Assembly: GCA_013289765.1 (NCBI GenBank)
Contig: JABCZI010000003.1
Span: forward strand, 248,001 to 312,000
Direction: 5' to 3'
Length of the DNA: 64,000 nt
Source of the DNA: Acidobacteriota bacterium
Lineage (GTDB): Bacteria; Acidobacteriota; Terriglobia; Terriglobales; Acidobacteriaceae
A program made the position numbers and the translations under genes. Of this stretch, positions 508 through 6,476 are shown piece after piece; the first letter of the stretch is position 1; the number at the start of each line of letters is the position of its first letter. The notes beneath the pieces were generated by a model that was given only the letters and a program-made list of their open reading frames with translations, was not told the DNA's origin and did no database searches.

Positions 508-1071
508 TCAATGAACGGGAGGTGCCGATGGTGACGTCGATAAATCTGAAATAAGCACCTTCTTTACGGAATCAGGAATTTCGTTCGCATGCGCGAGTAG
601 CTCACTTACTTGCCATAGCTGAGTGTCGGTTAGCTTGTTCTTGAAGGAGGGCATCCCCGAAAGTCGAATTCCATTGGCTGCCTTCCAGTAACTCTCCGAC
701 GCCGGGTCATCGGTAACACCCTTGCCACGGAACAATTGCGGGGGTTTGGGAAACATCGTTGTCGCATAGTCCATGGGTGGCTGCCCCGGAAGTCCGTGAC
801 ACAAAGCGCAGTGCTGTTTGTATACGCTGGCGCCGGCAAGAAAATTAGGTTCGTCCGCGGGCACAGAAGAGGGAGGAATATGTTGCTTCTCGATATGCGC
901 ATCCAGGGCCATATTCGCGAACTTTTTTTCAAAGGGCATAGGCGGATCGGCTGTTGCCACCGGAGCCAAGCCGGCAGAAAAGTAGAGGAAGACACAACCC
1001 ACTGAAACCGCAATGGCCAGAATGAAACCGAGTACGATACCCTTTATCACTTGTGAGCTCCTGTCTTGCAT
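508..1071 (-). CDS. Membrane-anchored mono-haem cytochrome c
   Basis: 187 residues. An uncleaved-looking hydrophobic segment at residues 8-35 should anchor the protein in the inner membrane with the rest in the periplasm. One CxxCH haem site lies at C88-A-L-C91-H92, and GMPSF (Met140) is the likely sixth ligand, which is the class I/cytochrome cbb3-subunit-like (cytochrome_CBB3) layout. It lies 3 bases after the barrel gene at 1075-1884 and 8 bases before the ferric-reductase-like gene, so the three look like one operon. Role inferred: a one-electron shuttle between the bis-haem membrane protein and a periplasmic or outer-membrane partner. The electron partner cannot be identified from sequence. 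Confidence 0.88.
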   Translation of the reverse strand: MQDRSSQVIKGIVLGFILAIAVSVGCVFLYFSAGLAPVATADPPMPFEKKFANMALDAHIEKQHIPPSSVPADEPNFLAGASVYKQHCALCHGLPGQPPMDYATTMFPKPPQLFRGKGVTDDPASESYWKAANGIRLSGMPSFKNKLTDTQLWQVSELLAHANEIPDSVKKVLISDLSTSPSAPPVH

Positions 1072-1983: not shown

Positions 1984-2748
1984 ATGCGGAGGCTAACAAC
2001 GTGTTCATTTGTTCCAATCATTTTCCGTGTTCTGATCTCAATTAGTTTTCTTTCCGGAGGCGTCAGGGCCCTTTGTCAGGAAGCATCTACGCTGCCGGAT
2101 GCTCCGAGTGCGCGTCAAACTCAAACGGTTCCATCGAACCCTGCACAACGCGATCGACAACATGAACCGAGTAAAAACCACATCTTCTGGATCATCCCCA
2201 ACTACCGTTCAGATGAGAACTCGGCAGTAACCAAACCTTTGACGCCTGCCGAAAAGATGAAAGTTTCATTGGACGACTCTTTCGATCCCTCAGCATTTCT
2301 AGTGGCCGGTATTTTTGCTGGCATCTCAATGGCGGAGCGTCAGTACACATCTTTCGGCACTGGGGCGCAAGGGTTTGGCAAATACTACGGCGGAGCTTTC
2401 GCAGATCAGGCAATTGGCAACATCATGACCGAGGGCCTATTGCCGATCGCTCTCCATCAGGACCCCCGCTACTTCGTAAAAGGCACAGGGGGCTTTTGGA
2501 AGCGATCCGAATACGCCATAAGCCGGGAATTTATCACCCGGGGCGACGATGGCCACAACCATTTCAACACATCGGAACTGGCCGGAAACGCCGTAGCCGC
2601 GGGTATTTCCAACCTTTACTATCCGGCCGCGGACCGATCGTTTGGAAATACCGCAAACAAGTGGGGACAACAAATAGCCCTTGATGCGTTCTTCAACGTG
2701 ACAAAAGAGTTCTGGCCAGACGTGCGCAACAAGTTGTTTAAACATTGA
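1984..2748 (+). CDS. Conserved exported hypothetical protein
   Basis: 254 residues, divergent from the redox cluster with a 99-base shared promoter region. An N-terminal signal peptide (residues ~10-31) is followed by a low-complexity Pro/Gln/Ser stretch with LPDAPSA, a motif frequent at the N-terminus of acidobacterial exported proteins. The C-terminal two thirds contain Gly/Ala-rich hydrophobic stretches (FLVAGIFAGISMAE, GNIMTEGLLPIALHQDPRYF) that could dip into or cross a membrane. The pattern HxDPRYF is recognisable from other acidobacterial hypothetical proteins, but no function is known to me. It ends 20 bases from the convergent histidine kinase gene. Confidence 0.7.
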   Translation: MRRLTTCSFVPIIFRVLISISFLSGGVRALCQEASTLPDAPSARQTQTVPSNPAQRDRQHEPSKNHIFWIIPNYRSDENSAVTKPLTPAEKMKVSLDDSFDPSAFLVAGIFAGISMAERQYTSFGTGAQGFGKYYGGAFADQAIGNIMTEGLLPIALHQDPRYFVKGTGGFWKRSEYAISREFITRGDDGHNHFNTSELAGNAVAAGISNLYYPAADRSFGNTANKWGQQIALDAFFNVTKEFWPDVRNKLFKH

Positions 2749-2768: not shown

Positions 2769-4214
2769 CTACGCCGTCTGGAGCACGCTAATGGGAAGCA
2801 ACAAGGTGATAACGGCGCCGCCTTCCGGCCGGCCGGAGACCTGCGCGCAGCCGCCATGCGCCTGGGCGACTGCATCCACAAAGGCCAGTCCCAGACCGTG
2901 ACCGGGAGAATGTTTTCCCTTCACGAATCGCTTGAAAGCCTGATTGCCGATTTCAGGTGGAAATCCCGGACCATCGTCTTCAATCACAAGTGCTGCTGAT
3001 CCTTGATGCGAACGGAGCCGGATTTTGACTCGGCATCCCTCCGGCAGATGAGTCAATTCATTTTCAAGCAGATTGCTTACTGCACGATTCAGCAAAGTCA
3101 CATCAGCGTCCACTACGACATGCTTTTCGAGTTCAGTCGTTACTTCATGATCGTGCTCGGCCATTGCGGGTTGATAAATATCAACCAGTTGTCGCACGAC
3201 ATCGGAGAAGTCGACTGGAGCGCGATCGATGTGAAGCGCACCGGCCTCCGCTTCGGCGAGATCCAGCGTTGTGTTCAGCAACTGCAAGAGCCTGTCGAGG
3301 TCTTCGATCGCTTCTCCCACGGAGTCGCGCCACTTCTCATTTCCTTCATTACATAATGCAGATTCCAGCGTTCCACGAATCAAGGTGACCGGGCTTTTGA
3401 GATCATGCGCGATACCGCCAGTAACGGTGCGAAGCTGATTTACAGAAGACTGGAGCCGGTCCAGCATGCGATTGAAAGTCTTCGCCAGCCGCGAAATCTC
3501 ATCCGAATTCACAGGCTCGGGCAGACGTTCCTGTAAGCCCTCGGTGCCAATTCGCGCGACAGTTTCCGTAATTCGCTCAACCCGATGCAGAGTACGGCGT
3601 GCGCTCCAGTAGGAAATTACGAAGCCCAGCAGGAACATGCCGCCCCAAAGCATGAGAAAGCGACGGGCCAATGTGTGTAGCAGATGTATGGCGCCATGAT
3701 CGGAGAGTCCCAGATAAACATTCTTTCCATTTTGAGCCTTGGCCACGACTCGAAACGTTTGCCGATACCCTTCGACTTTTATCGACTTCGGCGGTCCTGG
3801 AGTTAACGCTGCGCGCTGAATTGCGGAAATAAAAGCATCCTTGGAACTCGGACCAACCCACAACGGGCTATCGTCATTATTATTAGGGTTTGTTGCCAAG
3901 AAAAATACGGAGTTCAGACTTTCGCCGCGGGCATTGCGCTCATCAGGCACCTCCTGCGCAGCAAGTTCAGCCACCTCTCGAACTATGCTCTTATAGAGGC
4001 GGTCGCTCGGCGTGTCAGCTGAAACTTGAGCTAGAACCTCAGCCTCGCCACTCAGCCAAGTGTCGCTCCTCTCTCGCAGACCCTGAGCGACAAGGAAATA
4101 AACTATGGAAAAGGCTCCTGCGGTTCCGAGCGCGAACGCCAGGGTTGTCCAAATCGAAATCCGCCAAGCTGCGGTCGTGCGCAGGTCCCTATGCATGTTT
4201 GAGAACATAGCCAA
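2769..4214 (-). CDS. Sensor histidine kinase (HAMP-HisKA-HATPase)
   Basis: 481 residues from the upstream ATG; an internal ATG at 4196 would reduce the overlap with the response regulator from 26 to 8 bases and is equally plausible. Domains: TM helix ~20-43, periplasmic sensor ~44-185, TM ~186-203, HAMP ~205-258, dimerisation/phosphoacceptor helix with H270 in GGIAHDLKSP, then the ATPase domain with an N-box (VSNLLENEL), DDGPGF and GHGLGLAFV. This is the classic EnvZ/QseC-type architecture: it autophosphorylates His270 and hands the phosphate to the partner regulator. The regulator gene is upstream and overlapping, so the two are translationally coupled. The ligand is unknown; the periplasmic part shows no recognisable fold. 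Confidence 0.93.
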   Translation of the reverse strand: MAMFSNMHRDLRTTAAWRISIWTTLAFALGTAGAFSIVYFLVAQGLRERSDTWLSGEAEVLAQVSADTPSDRLYKSIVREVAELAAQEVPDERNARGESLNSVFFLATNPNNNDDSPLWVGPSSKDAFISAIQRAALTPGPPKSIKVEGYRQTFRVVAKAQNGKNVYLGLSDHGAIHLLHTLARRFLMLWGGMFLLGFVISYWSARRTLHRVERITETVARIGTEGLQERLPEPVNSDEISRLAKTFNRMLDRLQSSVNQLRTVTGGIAHDLKSPVTLIRGTLESALCNEGNEKWRDSVGEAIEDLDRLLQLLNTTLDLAEAEAGALHIDRAPVDFSDVVRQLVDIYQPAMAEHDHEVTTELEKHVVVDADVTLLNRAVSNLLENELTHLPEGCRVKIRLRSHQGSAALVIEDDGPGFPPEIGNQAFKRFVKGKHSPGHGLGLAFVDAVAQAHGGCAQVSGRPEGGAVITLLLPISVLQTA

Positions 4215-4866
4215 CGCCGCGAATCGTGTGAATCAGCGGCCGCAAGGTGTCATGATCCACTTTACTTCGGAGACGATAGATGTGGACGTCCACGACGTTG
4301 GTTGCGGGGTCAATCCGCATGCGCCAGACATGATCCAGAATCATGGTCCGGGTTACCACTCGCCCTTCATTGCGGCAAAGATATTCCAGAAGAGAAAACT
4401 CCTGTGGGGTGAGTTGAAGTAAATGATCGCCCCGTCGCGCTTCACGACGAACCAAATCAAGCTGCAAGTCGGCAGCTTTGAGGCGCACGGATTCAGTTTG
4501 AGGGACAAAGGACCTGCGTAGAAGATTTCTCAATCTTGCGAGGAGTTCCGGCAGGGCGAATGGTTTTGTGAGGTAGTCGTCTCCGCCCTGCTCTAGGCCT
4601 CGCACACGTTCGTCTACAGAACGCCGGGCAGAAAGGATTAAAACCGGCACTGAACTGCCTTGGGCGCGGCAGCGAGCAATTAAGTCCAGTCCGTCCATGT
4701 CTGGAAGTCCTAGATCGATGATGAAAGCATCGTGAATACCTTCCAGGGCAATGGCTTCGCCCGTTTTTGCCATGGTGGCCGTATCCACTTGATATCCGGC
4801 CTCTACCAGCGCCCGCTTAAGGAACTGCTGAATGGATATGTCGTCTTCTACCACCAACAATCGCAT
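4189..4866 (-). CDS. OmpR/PhoB-family response regulator
   Basis: 225 residues starting at MRLLVVEDD. A longer frame to 5001 exists, but its extra residues do not belong to the receiver fold, so the ATG at 4866 is chosen. Receiver domain residues 1-115: acidic pair D8/D9, phosphoacceptor D51 (IIDLGLPDMDG), and the conserved Lys in LTKPFAL. Winged-helix Trans_reg_C domain ~125-222 ends in IHTIRGVGYVLK, the standard PhoB-type C-terminus. It precedes and overlaps the histidine kinase gene. Likely targets include its own operon or the nearby YceI/b561 genes, but no binding site was identified. Confidence 0.94.
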   Translation of the reverse strand: MRLLVVEDDISIQQFLKRALVEAGYQVDTATMAKTGEAIALEGIHDAFIIDLGLPDMDGLDLIARCRAQGSSVPVLILSARRSVDERVRGLEQGGDDYLTKPFALPELLARLRNLLRRSFVPQTESVRLKAADLQLDLVRREARRGDHLLQLTPQEFSLLEYLCRNEGRVVTRTMILDHVWRMRIDPATNVVDVHIYRLRSKVDHDTLRPLIHTIRGVGYVLKHA

Positions 4867-5018: not shown

Positions 5019-5555
5019 TCACTGCGGATGCCAAGTCATATCCACGCGCACAGGAGTTTCGTTCTTCACCGGCATCGTCAGCAGCGATGGCGGATCGATT
5101 TTGAAATCCGAAAGCGTAGCTGGAATTGTTCCCGTGATGTGAATGTCGCCGCCTTGTCGTTCCAGTTTGAAGGGAATCTGCTTGTACTCGGCAGACTGGC
5201 CGGCGAACTGAATCTGCAGATCGGCATTGATGGTTGTCGATGCGGCGGCTGATTCAGGCAGGCGAGTGCGCACGGTAACCAGCGGAAACTCGGCCCCACG
5301 CGTGACCTGGAGCGTATGAAGATCGCGATTGCTGTCTCCGGAATCAAAAGATTTAACTGATACCGCGATCAAGAATTCGCACTGGCCTGCGTGACAAACG
5401 CCCTTGCCCTTCGCCGCATGACTTACACCCTCAGTCTGGTGGAGTGGGTGCGATACGTGGTACGTCAGAGTGCTGCTTTGAAGTAGCCATTGGCTGTCTG
5501 CTCCAGCAGCAGGCAACGCCAGGAGCAAGAAGGCAATGAGCATTTTATGATTCAT
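5019..5555 (-). CDS. YceI-family periplasmic protein
   Basis: 178 residues with a signal peptide (residues 1-19, ending AGADS). The mature protein has the YceI lipocalin-like pattern: a leading W-x(6)-S-x-L-x-Y-x-V-x-H, then SFDSGDSNRDLHTLQV and a central TxxPxVTVR-type strand. YceI proteins bind a long isoprenoid or similar lipid in a barrel and are periplasmic. It follows the carboxypeptidase-regulatory/b561-like gene by 9 bases on the same strand. That mirrors the E. coli yceJ-yceI pair (cytochrome b561 homologue plus YceI), which supports both calls. The exact ligand is unknown. Confidence 0.82.
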   Translation of the reverse strand: MNHKMLIAFLLLALPAAGADSQWLLQSSTLTYHVSHPLHQTEGVSHAAKGKGVCHAGQCEFLIAVSVKSFDSGDSNRDLHTLQVTRGAEFPLVTVRTRLPESAAASTTINADLQIQFAGQSAEYKQIPFKLERQGGDIHITGTIPATLSDFKIDPPSLLTMPVKNETPVRVDMTWHPQ

Positions 5556-5564
5556 AAACTTTGC

Positions 5565-6476
5565 TTAGAACTTAACTGAAACCGACAGCAGAGCAGCCGC
5601 ATACGCTCCGGCAGTGACGATCGCCACTGGTGCATGCGCAGACGCAATCCCGTGCACTTTCTCGCCATTATTTTTTTGATCGAAGGCCATAATCCCAAGA
5701 ATCGGCGTCAGAATCATTCCGGGTCCATGAATCCAAGCCATGGCCTTGTGAAAACGAATCGGGCCGCGGGTTTCCGTGCCGGGCACACGAGGCGCACGAA
5801 TCGCATAGTAAGCTGTTATGCCGTACAAATCGCCGGTCAGGCCGCCCAGGGCCGTGTGCAGATCGCGCGAAGTTGTGCTGGTGCTCTTGCCGCCGGCATT
5901 GAGAGACGTTATAACCGTTGCGATTAAAGGAATGGTCGTGATCAGACCCATCCGTTGATGAATCTTAAGCATGTGTGTCCGCTTATCGAGCAACGCCTGT
6001 TCACGTGCATTTCCCTGAGTCTGCTCTGGAGAAAGGCCCAGGTCCGAAAGCGAAGGCGCCGTCGCACTGCTGGATGGTGCGTTCGGCAAATTATCGTTTT
6101 GCACCGGTGCGGGTTCGGCGGTTTCCAGCTTTTCGTCCAGAACCAGCGTATCGGCCCCGTTGACTGTTGCAGTGGGGATCTCCAACGTCTTGAAGCCGGC
6201 GGCCTCAAACTTCATCTGGTAGTTGCCCGGTGGCAGACCGTCAAATTTATAAGAGCCATCCGTGGCTGTAGTTGTGCCTCGCACCTGGCCGCCCGCGCTG
6301 GTCGCAGTCACGGCGGCATTCGCCACCGCGTTACCGGAGGTATCGACAACCTTGCCCGTCAATGCTCCCATTCCAGCGGTCTGAGCCAACAGACAGGGAG
6401 CGAACGCGAAGGGCAATGACACAAACAAAACGAGGCCAGCCACACGGCTAAGTCGGTTGCGAAAGATATTCCTCAT
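5565..6476 (-). CDS. Carboxypeptidase-regulatory domain fused to a b561-like His-rich membrane domain
   Basis: 303 residues. Signal peptide ~1-32; a carboxypeptidase-regulatory-like beta-sandwich ~37-115 (GKVVDTSGNAVANAAVT...DGSYKFDGLPPGNY); a Pro/Ser linker with NLPNAPSS; then about four hydrophobic segments (~172-303). The membrane part carries His in KIHQRMG, DLHTALGG, RFHKAMAWIHG and VHGIASAHAP, placed near helix ends like haem ligands in cytochrome b561-type four-helix proteins. It is followed 9 bases later by a YceI gene, a pairing known from E. coli yceJ-yceI. The beta-sandwich/membrane fusion is unusual for b561 proteins and may be an acidobacterial variant. Haem binding is inferred only from the His pattern. 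Confidence 0.7.
   Translation of the reverse strand: MRNIFRNRLSRVAGLVLFVSLPFAFAPCLLAQTAGMGALTGKVVDTSGNAVANAAVTATSAGGQVRGTTTATDGSYKFDGLPPGNYQMKFEAAGFKTLEIPTATVNGADTLVLDEKLETAEPAPVQNDNLPNAPSSSATAPSLSDLGLSPEQTQGNAREQALLDKRTHMLKIHQRMGLITTIPLIATVITSLNAGGKSTSTTSRDLHTALGGLTGDLYGITAYYAIRAPRVPGTETRGPIRFHKAMAWIHGPGMILTPILGIMAFDQKNNGEKVHGIASAHAPVAIVTAGAYAAALLSVSVKF

Follow-up and report, generated by a model that had tools for sequence, protein, structure and literature searches.

The window, a stretch of 64,000 nucleotides from an Acidobacteriota genome, carries on its minus strand a gene (A) for an exported protein with a His-rich C-terminal half. A second gene (B), encoding a YceI-family protein, follows downstream on the same strand after 9 nt. 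Both open reading frames lie where the initial annotation had placed them, A at 5565-6476(-) and B at 5019-5555(-), and genes for a two-component system come next.

5565..6476, minus strand: gene A, 303 aa, comprising a signal peptide, a CarboxypepD_reg domain, a linker and a four-helix His-rich (b561-like) half
6381..6476, minus strand: signal peptide of A, about residues 1-32, ending in ...LLAQ (cleavage site placed by eye)
6132..6362, minus strand: CarboxypepD_reg domain, residues 39-115 of A, a PF13620 match, optional in the family
5568..6050, minus strand: b561-like half (C-half), residues 143-303 of A, with four predicted helices
5019..5555, minus strand: gene B, 178 aa, exported YceI-family protein in which Cys54/Cys59, His33 and His80 are invariant
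4189..4866, minus strand: OmpR-type response regulator (Response_reg and Trans_reg_C), downstream of B
2769..4214, minus strand: sensor histidine kinase (HAMP, HisKA, HATPase_c), overlapping the regulator gene

The initial annotation had assigned A a signal peptide and an extracytoplasmic β-sandwich, and both assignments held. The hydrophobic segment at residues 12-30 has a Kyte-Doolittle mean of 2.29, and A31-Q32 is nearly invariant in 24 aligned rows. Residues 39-115 match PF13620 (E = 1.4e-19; 70.7 bits against a cut-off of 32.3), with a transthyretin-like fold close to that of 5aq0 (Z = 14.3 over 80 residues, rmsd 1.2) and matched also by the SusC N-terminal extension 9hfj (NTE; Z = 11.7). 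For the C-half of the window protein, no Pfam or NCBIfam model gave a match above its cut-off. The stretch that joins the CarboxypepD_reg domain to the C-half contains an LP[DN]AP[ST] motif (residues 130-135; window 6072-6089(-)). The motif recurs in an unrelated exported open reading frame at 1984-2748(+), right behind its signal peptide (TLPDAPSARQ), and in a few open reading frames of related loci that, judged by eye, seem unrelated. Genome-wide, at the DNA level, its enrichment was not clear (7 matches, and 4 with the reversed pattern as control). Scores from a scan for promoters and terminators fell inside the shuffled range.

Protein B is a divergent member of its family. The window protein matches the YceI model PF04264 weakly (E = 9.4e-4; 20.0 bits, cut-off 23.7), and hits at E ≤ 0.1 (best 1.4e-9) come from 31 of the 32 sequences in its alignment, to which window B belongs, in agreement with the YceI partner originally proposed. 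A search of PDB sequences with the B profile returned nothing at E ≤ 0.1. Across the 32 members the Cys54/Cys59 pair, His33 and His80 are invariant, and His36, His39 and His46 are nearly so; the Cys pair and His cluster could represent a disulfide or a metal site. BcnA, the YceI lipocalin of Burkholderia, and its homologues are described in PMC9113575 as having no Cys.

The regulator start at 4866 was picked by homology, the open reading frame running to 5001. Its best NCBIfam match is cztR_silR_copR, at 229.9 bits under a cut-off of 279.2, and the kinase scores 189.2 bits against cztS_silS_copS, under a cut-off of 292.55. Counting the window, ten distinct loci have two-component genes behind the A-B pair, and all ten come from close relatives; such genes were not seen in at least 4 kb downstream of the pair in L037, L041-L043, L045-L048, L051 and L053 (matches of at least 38% identity). 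They lie outside the A-B unit. About 1.7 kb past the kinase gene, an open reading frame at 508-1071(-) has an N-terminal hydrophobic segment and a CxxCH motif (CALCH), and is a probable cytochrome c.

Conservation of the pair and an optional N-terminal domain

The pairing of A and B is far beyond chance. Among 47 distinct C-halves, 43 have a YceI gene B next downstream on the same strand, and the other four lie at contig ends; the gaps between the matched domains of A and B range from 7 to 319 nt. In the window's genome and 60 relatives, the C-half was found in 25 of 61 genomes and B in 26: 24 genomes hold both genes, one holds A alone, two hold B alone and 34 hold neither, with some of the 24 two-gene genomes being contig fragments (G002, G004, G050). 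One relative (G006, contig C604) has a C-half copy with three in-frame stops and no detectable B, apparently a decay of the pair, or else the product of assembly errors. Another (G014, L065:1483-2022(+)) has a B that is 66-67% identical, without A and with a transporter-like open reading frame upstream, so a YceI protein of this kind can occur on its own; in G017, B is also alone, cut at the contig start. Of 396 genomes drawn across the phylum, 8 had the C-half, the window's own genome among them, and B adjoined it in all nine loci. All 47 collected C-halves come from Acidobacteriota, as do the loci of the 25 named relatives, three of which are Candidatus Sulfotelmatobacter. No homologues were found outside the phylum in an all-phyla scan with short exact peptides of the window protein, a search blind to distant ones.

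The CarboxypepD_reg domain is far less constant than the pair. Scored with an HMM of the family's own domain (E < 1e-5), it is present in 32 of the 47 A homologues and absent from 15, and the homologues without it keep the four-helix half and the YceI partner. Fourteen of these 15 start with a hydrophobic stretch that resembles a signal peptide (Kyte-Doolittle mean of the best 15 residues 1.9-2.8), and a linker comes next; the remaining one (L051) has neither the domain nor such a start, which may be a frame error. In another domain-less homologue (L088) there is an apparent decayed remnant of the domain. On a tree of 45 C-halves, from which the two truncated rows of the 47 were left out, the domain was gained or lost at least eight times, and six of these changes are forced by well-supported branches. 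The domain is therefore dispensable and does not define what is novel about A, and we abandon the view of the initial annotation that its fusion to the membrane half was a defining new architecture. The same genome holds 36 further matches to the N-terminal half of A, the best-scoring of them 39% identical; most lie in long open frames, about 1000-1400 aa. These sites probably belong to TonB-dependent receptors, and the domain in A may have been taken from those long frames. The N-terminal extension of TonB-dependent receptors is the same domain, with a plug and barrel behind it; in A, unlike in those receptors, it precedes a four-helix membrane half.

Invariant histidines in a predicted four-helix bundle

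With the full-length model, CarboxypepD_reg matches took up the fold-search results, and the C-half was therefore modelled by itself (pLDDT 83.7, pTM 0.76). AlphaFold2 places four antiparallel helices at residues 157-191, 201-227, 238-269 and 276-300. The initial annotation had pointed to His at four helix-end positions, and had set down beforehand that these should be conserved in homologues; the C-half of window A holds seven His, five of them invariant and four of these five in a b561-like pattern.

5958..5960, minus strand: His173 codon, 47/47 rows; maps to Dcytb 50-51 (ligand 50); proposed ligand 1, periplasmic haem
5856..5858, minus strand: His207 codon, 47/47 rows; maps to Dcytb 84-85 (ligand 86); proposed ligand 2, cytoplasmic haem
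5748..5750, minus strand: His243 codon, 45/45 rows; maps to Dcytb 120-121 (ligand 120); proposed ligand 3, periplasmic haem
5727..5729, minus strand: His250 codon, 45/45 rows; maps to Dcytb 127-128, where there is no His
5634..5636, minus strand: His281 codon, 45/45 rows; maps to Dcytb 158-159 (ligand 159); proposed ligand 4, cytoplasmic haem

Two of the 47 rows stop short of His243, His250 and His281, which were counted over 45 rows. The same five His are invariant in a 37-row alignment, and the conservation persists down to 46% identity; His275 (43/45 rows) and His168 (33/47) are not invariant. Four of the five, His173, His207, His243 and His281, fall one on each predicted helix with a spacing of 34/36/38. 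In human Dcytb, with H50/H120 as ligands of the apical haem and H86/H159 as those of the cytoplasmic haem, the ligand spacing is 36/34/39 (PMC6123691); in AtCytb561-B, with ligands set by alignment to Dcytb, it is 33/34/39; and in HYP1, a CYBDOM protein whose ligands were modelled, it is 34/33/36 (PMC10784544). The second interval in A is two residues longer than in any of these three, and the known ranges were therefore widened by 2. Random placement of five His met the widened ranges in 762 of 200,000 draws (0.4%), and a null with one His per helix plus one met them in 3,732 of 200,000 (1.9%). His250 was considered as a haem ligand in place of His243 and is the less likely candidate, as the resulting spacing (34/43/31) and the superposition (Dcytb 127-128) do not fit; by the AlphaFold2 helix boundaries, His250 is nearer the level of His173 than His243 is.

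In VIA-align, residues 22-161 of the C-half align with 41-181 of Dcytb 5zle (Z = 10.4, 134 residues, rmsd 4.0) and residues 19-161 with 40-179 of AtCytb561 4o6y (Z = 10.6, 136 residues, rmsd 4.0). Read from the ends of the aligned ranges, not from a residue-by-residue alignment, the four His fall 0-2 residues from the ligands of 5zle whichever end is counted from. On 4o6y (ligands 51, 84, 118, 157) they fall at 49, 83, 119 and 157 from the C end (0-2 off) and at 52, 86, 122 and 160 from the N end (1-4 off). The de novo di-haem bundle 4D2 was among the best fold matches of the C-half (Z = 11.8), and E. coli superoxide oxidase (SOO; 5oc0) was in the list (Z = 9.6, 137 aligned, rmsd 4.4). The b561 structures are not set apart from unrelated helical bundles in that list (Z 9.5-13.8), and for helical bundles a Z under about 13 may mean nothing. 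A Foldseek search with the C-half gave nothing at E ≤ 0.001, the best b561 row being 4o7g_B at E = 0.8.

Sequence homology of the C-half to b561 proteins is weak. The C-half of window A matched no b561 model. Among 37 homologues, ten matched PF03188 at E ≤ 10, and DUF420 was matched equally often (10/37, best 0.016). One examined homologue (L024) rose above the PF03188 cut-off (24.4 bits against 23), in a match with the His hairpin shifted, helices 1-2 lying on profile positions 64-130. Over the 61 genomes of the class, PF03188 gave one match, below cut-off and with an internal stop. A PDB sequence search with the C-half profile returned nothing at E ≤ 10. With an HMM built from two b561 sequences, the best score was 8.4 bits (L083), followed by 6.6-6.7 (L024 and L025), against 8.3 for the best of 30 shuffles and 0.6 for the reversed control. 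Homology to solved eukaryotic b561 proteins was not shown by a profile-profile comparison with two of them, where the score of 19.3 was reached by 2 of 30 column-shuffles; the PF01292 set scored only 20.3 against eukaryotic b561 as a positive control, so this test is blunt.

A search for sequence membership of PF01292 did not find it. Three of the 37 homologues matched this family at E ≤ 10, the best (0.0019) below cut-off. In hhalign, the 37 C-halves scored 9.7 against 29 PF01292 proteins (from 31 loci, L106 and L115 having no usable frame); both reversed controls (11.1 and 13.5) and 16 of 20 column-shuffles gave higher scores. The initial annotation had set the membrane half against the free-standing b561 of the E. 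coli yceJ-yceI pair; with no similarity to PF01292 proteins above shuffled controls, this half cannot be recognized as a YceJ that has gained a domain.

From the His pattern and the model, two bis-His haem sites in the C-half are likely. His173 and His243 would hold a haem near the periplasm and His207 and His281 a haem near the cytoplasm. An alternative hypothesis is that no haem is bound and that the His-rich bundle serves as a membrane anchor, structural or metal-binding, by which B is tethered or presented, the bundle's likeness to b561 being generic to four-helix bundles. The poor sequence evidence for a b561, the equally good fold matches to unrelated bundles and the fifth invariant His (His250), for which the b561 ligand scheme offers no explanation, all suit such an anchor. 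Four invariant His at about the b561 ligand spacing, rarely reproduced under either null and retained down to 46% identity, argue against it, and we consider it unlikely.

A putative electron-transfer pair and its relation to known systems

We propose that A is an exported inner-membrane protein whose C-half forms a b561-like bundle of four helices, carries two haems and has its two ends on the periplasmic side, and that CarboxypepD_reg serves as an optional periplasmic spacer. B would be its dedicated periplasmic YceI lipocalin, with an isoprenoid cargo for which (mena)quinone is the likeliest candidate. A would then exchange electrons across the membrane, in one direction or the other, with the head group of the quinone that B holds, and B would quench envelope radicals or oxidized lipids, a role like the one suggested for the Burkholderia pair LcoA-BcnA. 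What the sequences show is the gene pair, how it is conserved, the His pattern and a predicted four-helix fold; from there on we infer the haem, the topology, the ligand of B, the direction of electron flow and the antioxidant role, and give even chances to this envelope antioxidant pair, in which a di-haem A and a quinone-carrying B stand in for LcoA/YceJ; it is the best explanation of the observations. The choice of quinone follows from the host genome (a 4.8 Mb assembly). It contains two PF02621 genes above cut-off, presumably of the MqnA/D type that serves menaquinone synthesis by the futalosine route; the MenA model was unmatched, and two UbiA-type matches were below that model's cut-off. 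Menaquinone is therefore the most likely ligand and ubiquinone an unlikely one. The same genome has four other YceI genes by PF04264; on inspection by eye, the 1.5 kb on either side of each contains no b561-like gene. Its two PF01292 genes are located elsewhere than its YceI genes. One YceI-family gene of the host (L076) sits among open reading frames that by eye resemble hydrogenase-maturation genes.

The charge distribution of A bears on its topology. Mean counts of K+R against D+E are 5.2/3.2 before helix 1 and 5.2/0.9 in the loop between helices 2 and 3, compared with 2.1/1.0 and 2.3/1.5 in the remaining loops of the C-half. With the N-terminus outside, this balance would be contrary to the positive-inside rule, since the basic segments would face the periplasm; helix 2 has no 19-residue window that reaches a Kyte-Doolittle mean of 0.8. 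Such a charge balance is not fatal to an N-out topology, because E. coli SOO, also a four-helix, two-haem membrane protein, has a periplasmic cluster of Arg and Lys that gathers superoxide (PMC11869295). The resemblance raises the possibility that A is itself a superoxide oxidase-like enzyme, whose positive periplasmic face would collect superoxide and whose two haems would pass electrons to the menaquinone pool, with B delivering or removing quinone. The presence of 5oc0 in the fold list fits this reading, but that structure ties with unrelated bundles, the similarity to PF01292 proteins is lost among shuffles, and we know of no need of SOO for a YceI partner; we therefore regard it as quite unlikely. 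Still more doubtful is a metal reductase, in which A would reduce periplasmic Fe(III) or Cu(II), B would bind the metal or a chelate, and a CopR/CzcR-like two-component system would be in control: Dcytb and HYP1 are ferric reductases (PMC6123691, PMC10784544), the conserved His and Cys residues of B could serve such a role and the regulator and kinase score best, under cut-offs, with heavy-metal families, but two-component genes follow the pair in ten loci and were not seen in ten others.

The quinone-linked pair proposed here has its closest precedent in LcoA-BcnA, a b561 and a YceI lipocalin that are co-transcribed and in whose mutants lipid peroxides build up; in the model put forward for it, BcnA carries a ubiquinone that LcoA could reduce, and BcnA then quenches peroxyl radicals (PMC9113575). 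As in that system, a membrane gene that is b561-like, its b561 type being predicted, lies directly 5' of a gene for an exported YceI protein and is kept with it as a pair. A differs from LcoA and YceJ in its signal peptide, its long periplasmic N-terminus, often with CarboxypepD_reg, and its want of PF01292 similarity above controls. The equivalent pair in E. coli is yceJ-yceI. While the proteobacterial cases involve ubiquinone, the organism of A-B has menaquinone-type genes. Fusions of b561 and YceI occur in alphaproteobacteria (PMC9113575), whereas the fusion in A joins CarboxypepD_reg to the four-helix half. In titles and abstract openings from the open-licence literature, we found no description of the A-B pair. 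The pairing of b561 with YceI is already known, and what is new is a putative stand-in cytochrome with an exported N-terminus.

The role of YceI lipocalins, and why b561 cytochromes adjoin them, is unsettled. We speculate, at less than even odds, that YceI lipocalins recruited a second, separately derived di-haem membrane cytochrome, a bacterial protein of eukaryotic b561/CYBDOM layout having replaced YceJ/LcoA throughout this branch of the Acidobacteriota to serve a menaquinone-carrying YceI. If so, two pairings reached by convergence would mark the passage of electrons through the membrane to the quinone of the lipocalin as the core function of YceI systems. Replacement of the cytochrome by an unrelated or very remote di-haem protein in another phylum, with the partner retained at every locus whose surroundings were visible, would support a direct electron-transfer link between cytochrome and lipocalin.

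CybB, the superoxide oxidase of E. coli (5oc0), has to our knowledge neither a signal peptide nor a YceI partner, whereas A has both and shows no sequence similarity to PF01292 proteins beyond that of shuffles. The two are alike in being minimal four-helix di-haem proteins, in A by prediction, with a basic periplasmic side (PMC11869295). With the eukaryotic b561 core (PF03188: Dcytb, AtCytb561-B), A shares a predicted set of four helices and four invariant His at near-equal spacing, but it lacks the flanking helices, has the extra invariant His250 and, in the window protein, does not match PF03188. The overall layout resembles that of CYBDOM proteins (DOMON plus b561 core, e.g., HYP1 and CG8399), in which the N-terminus is outside and a b561 core built from helices 1-4 comes after an extracytoplasmic β-sandwich (PMC10691727). 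In A the β-sandwich is CarboxypepD_reg/transthyretin-like and not DOMON, it is often missing, and the partner is a YceI protein. A could also serve as a compact bacterial model for CYBDOM architecture.
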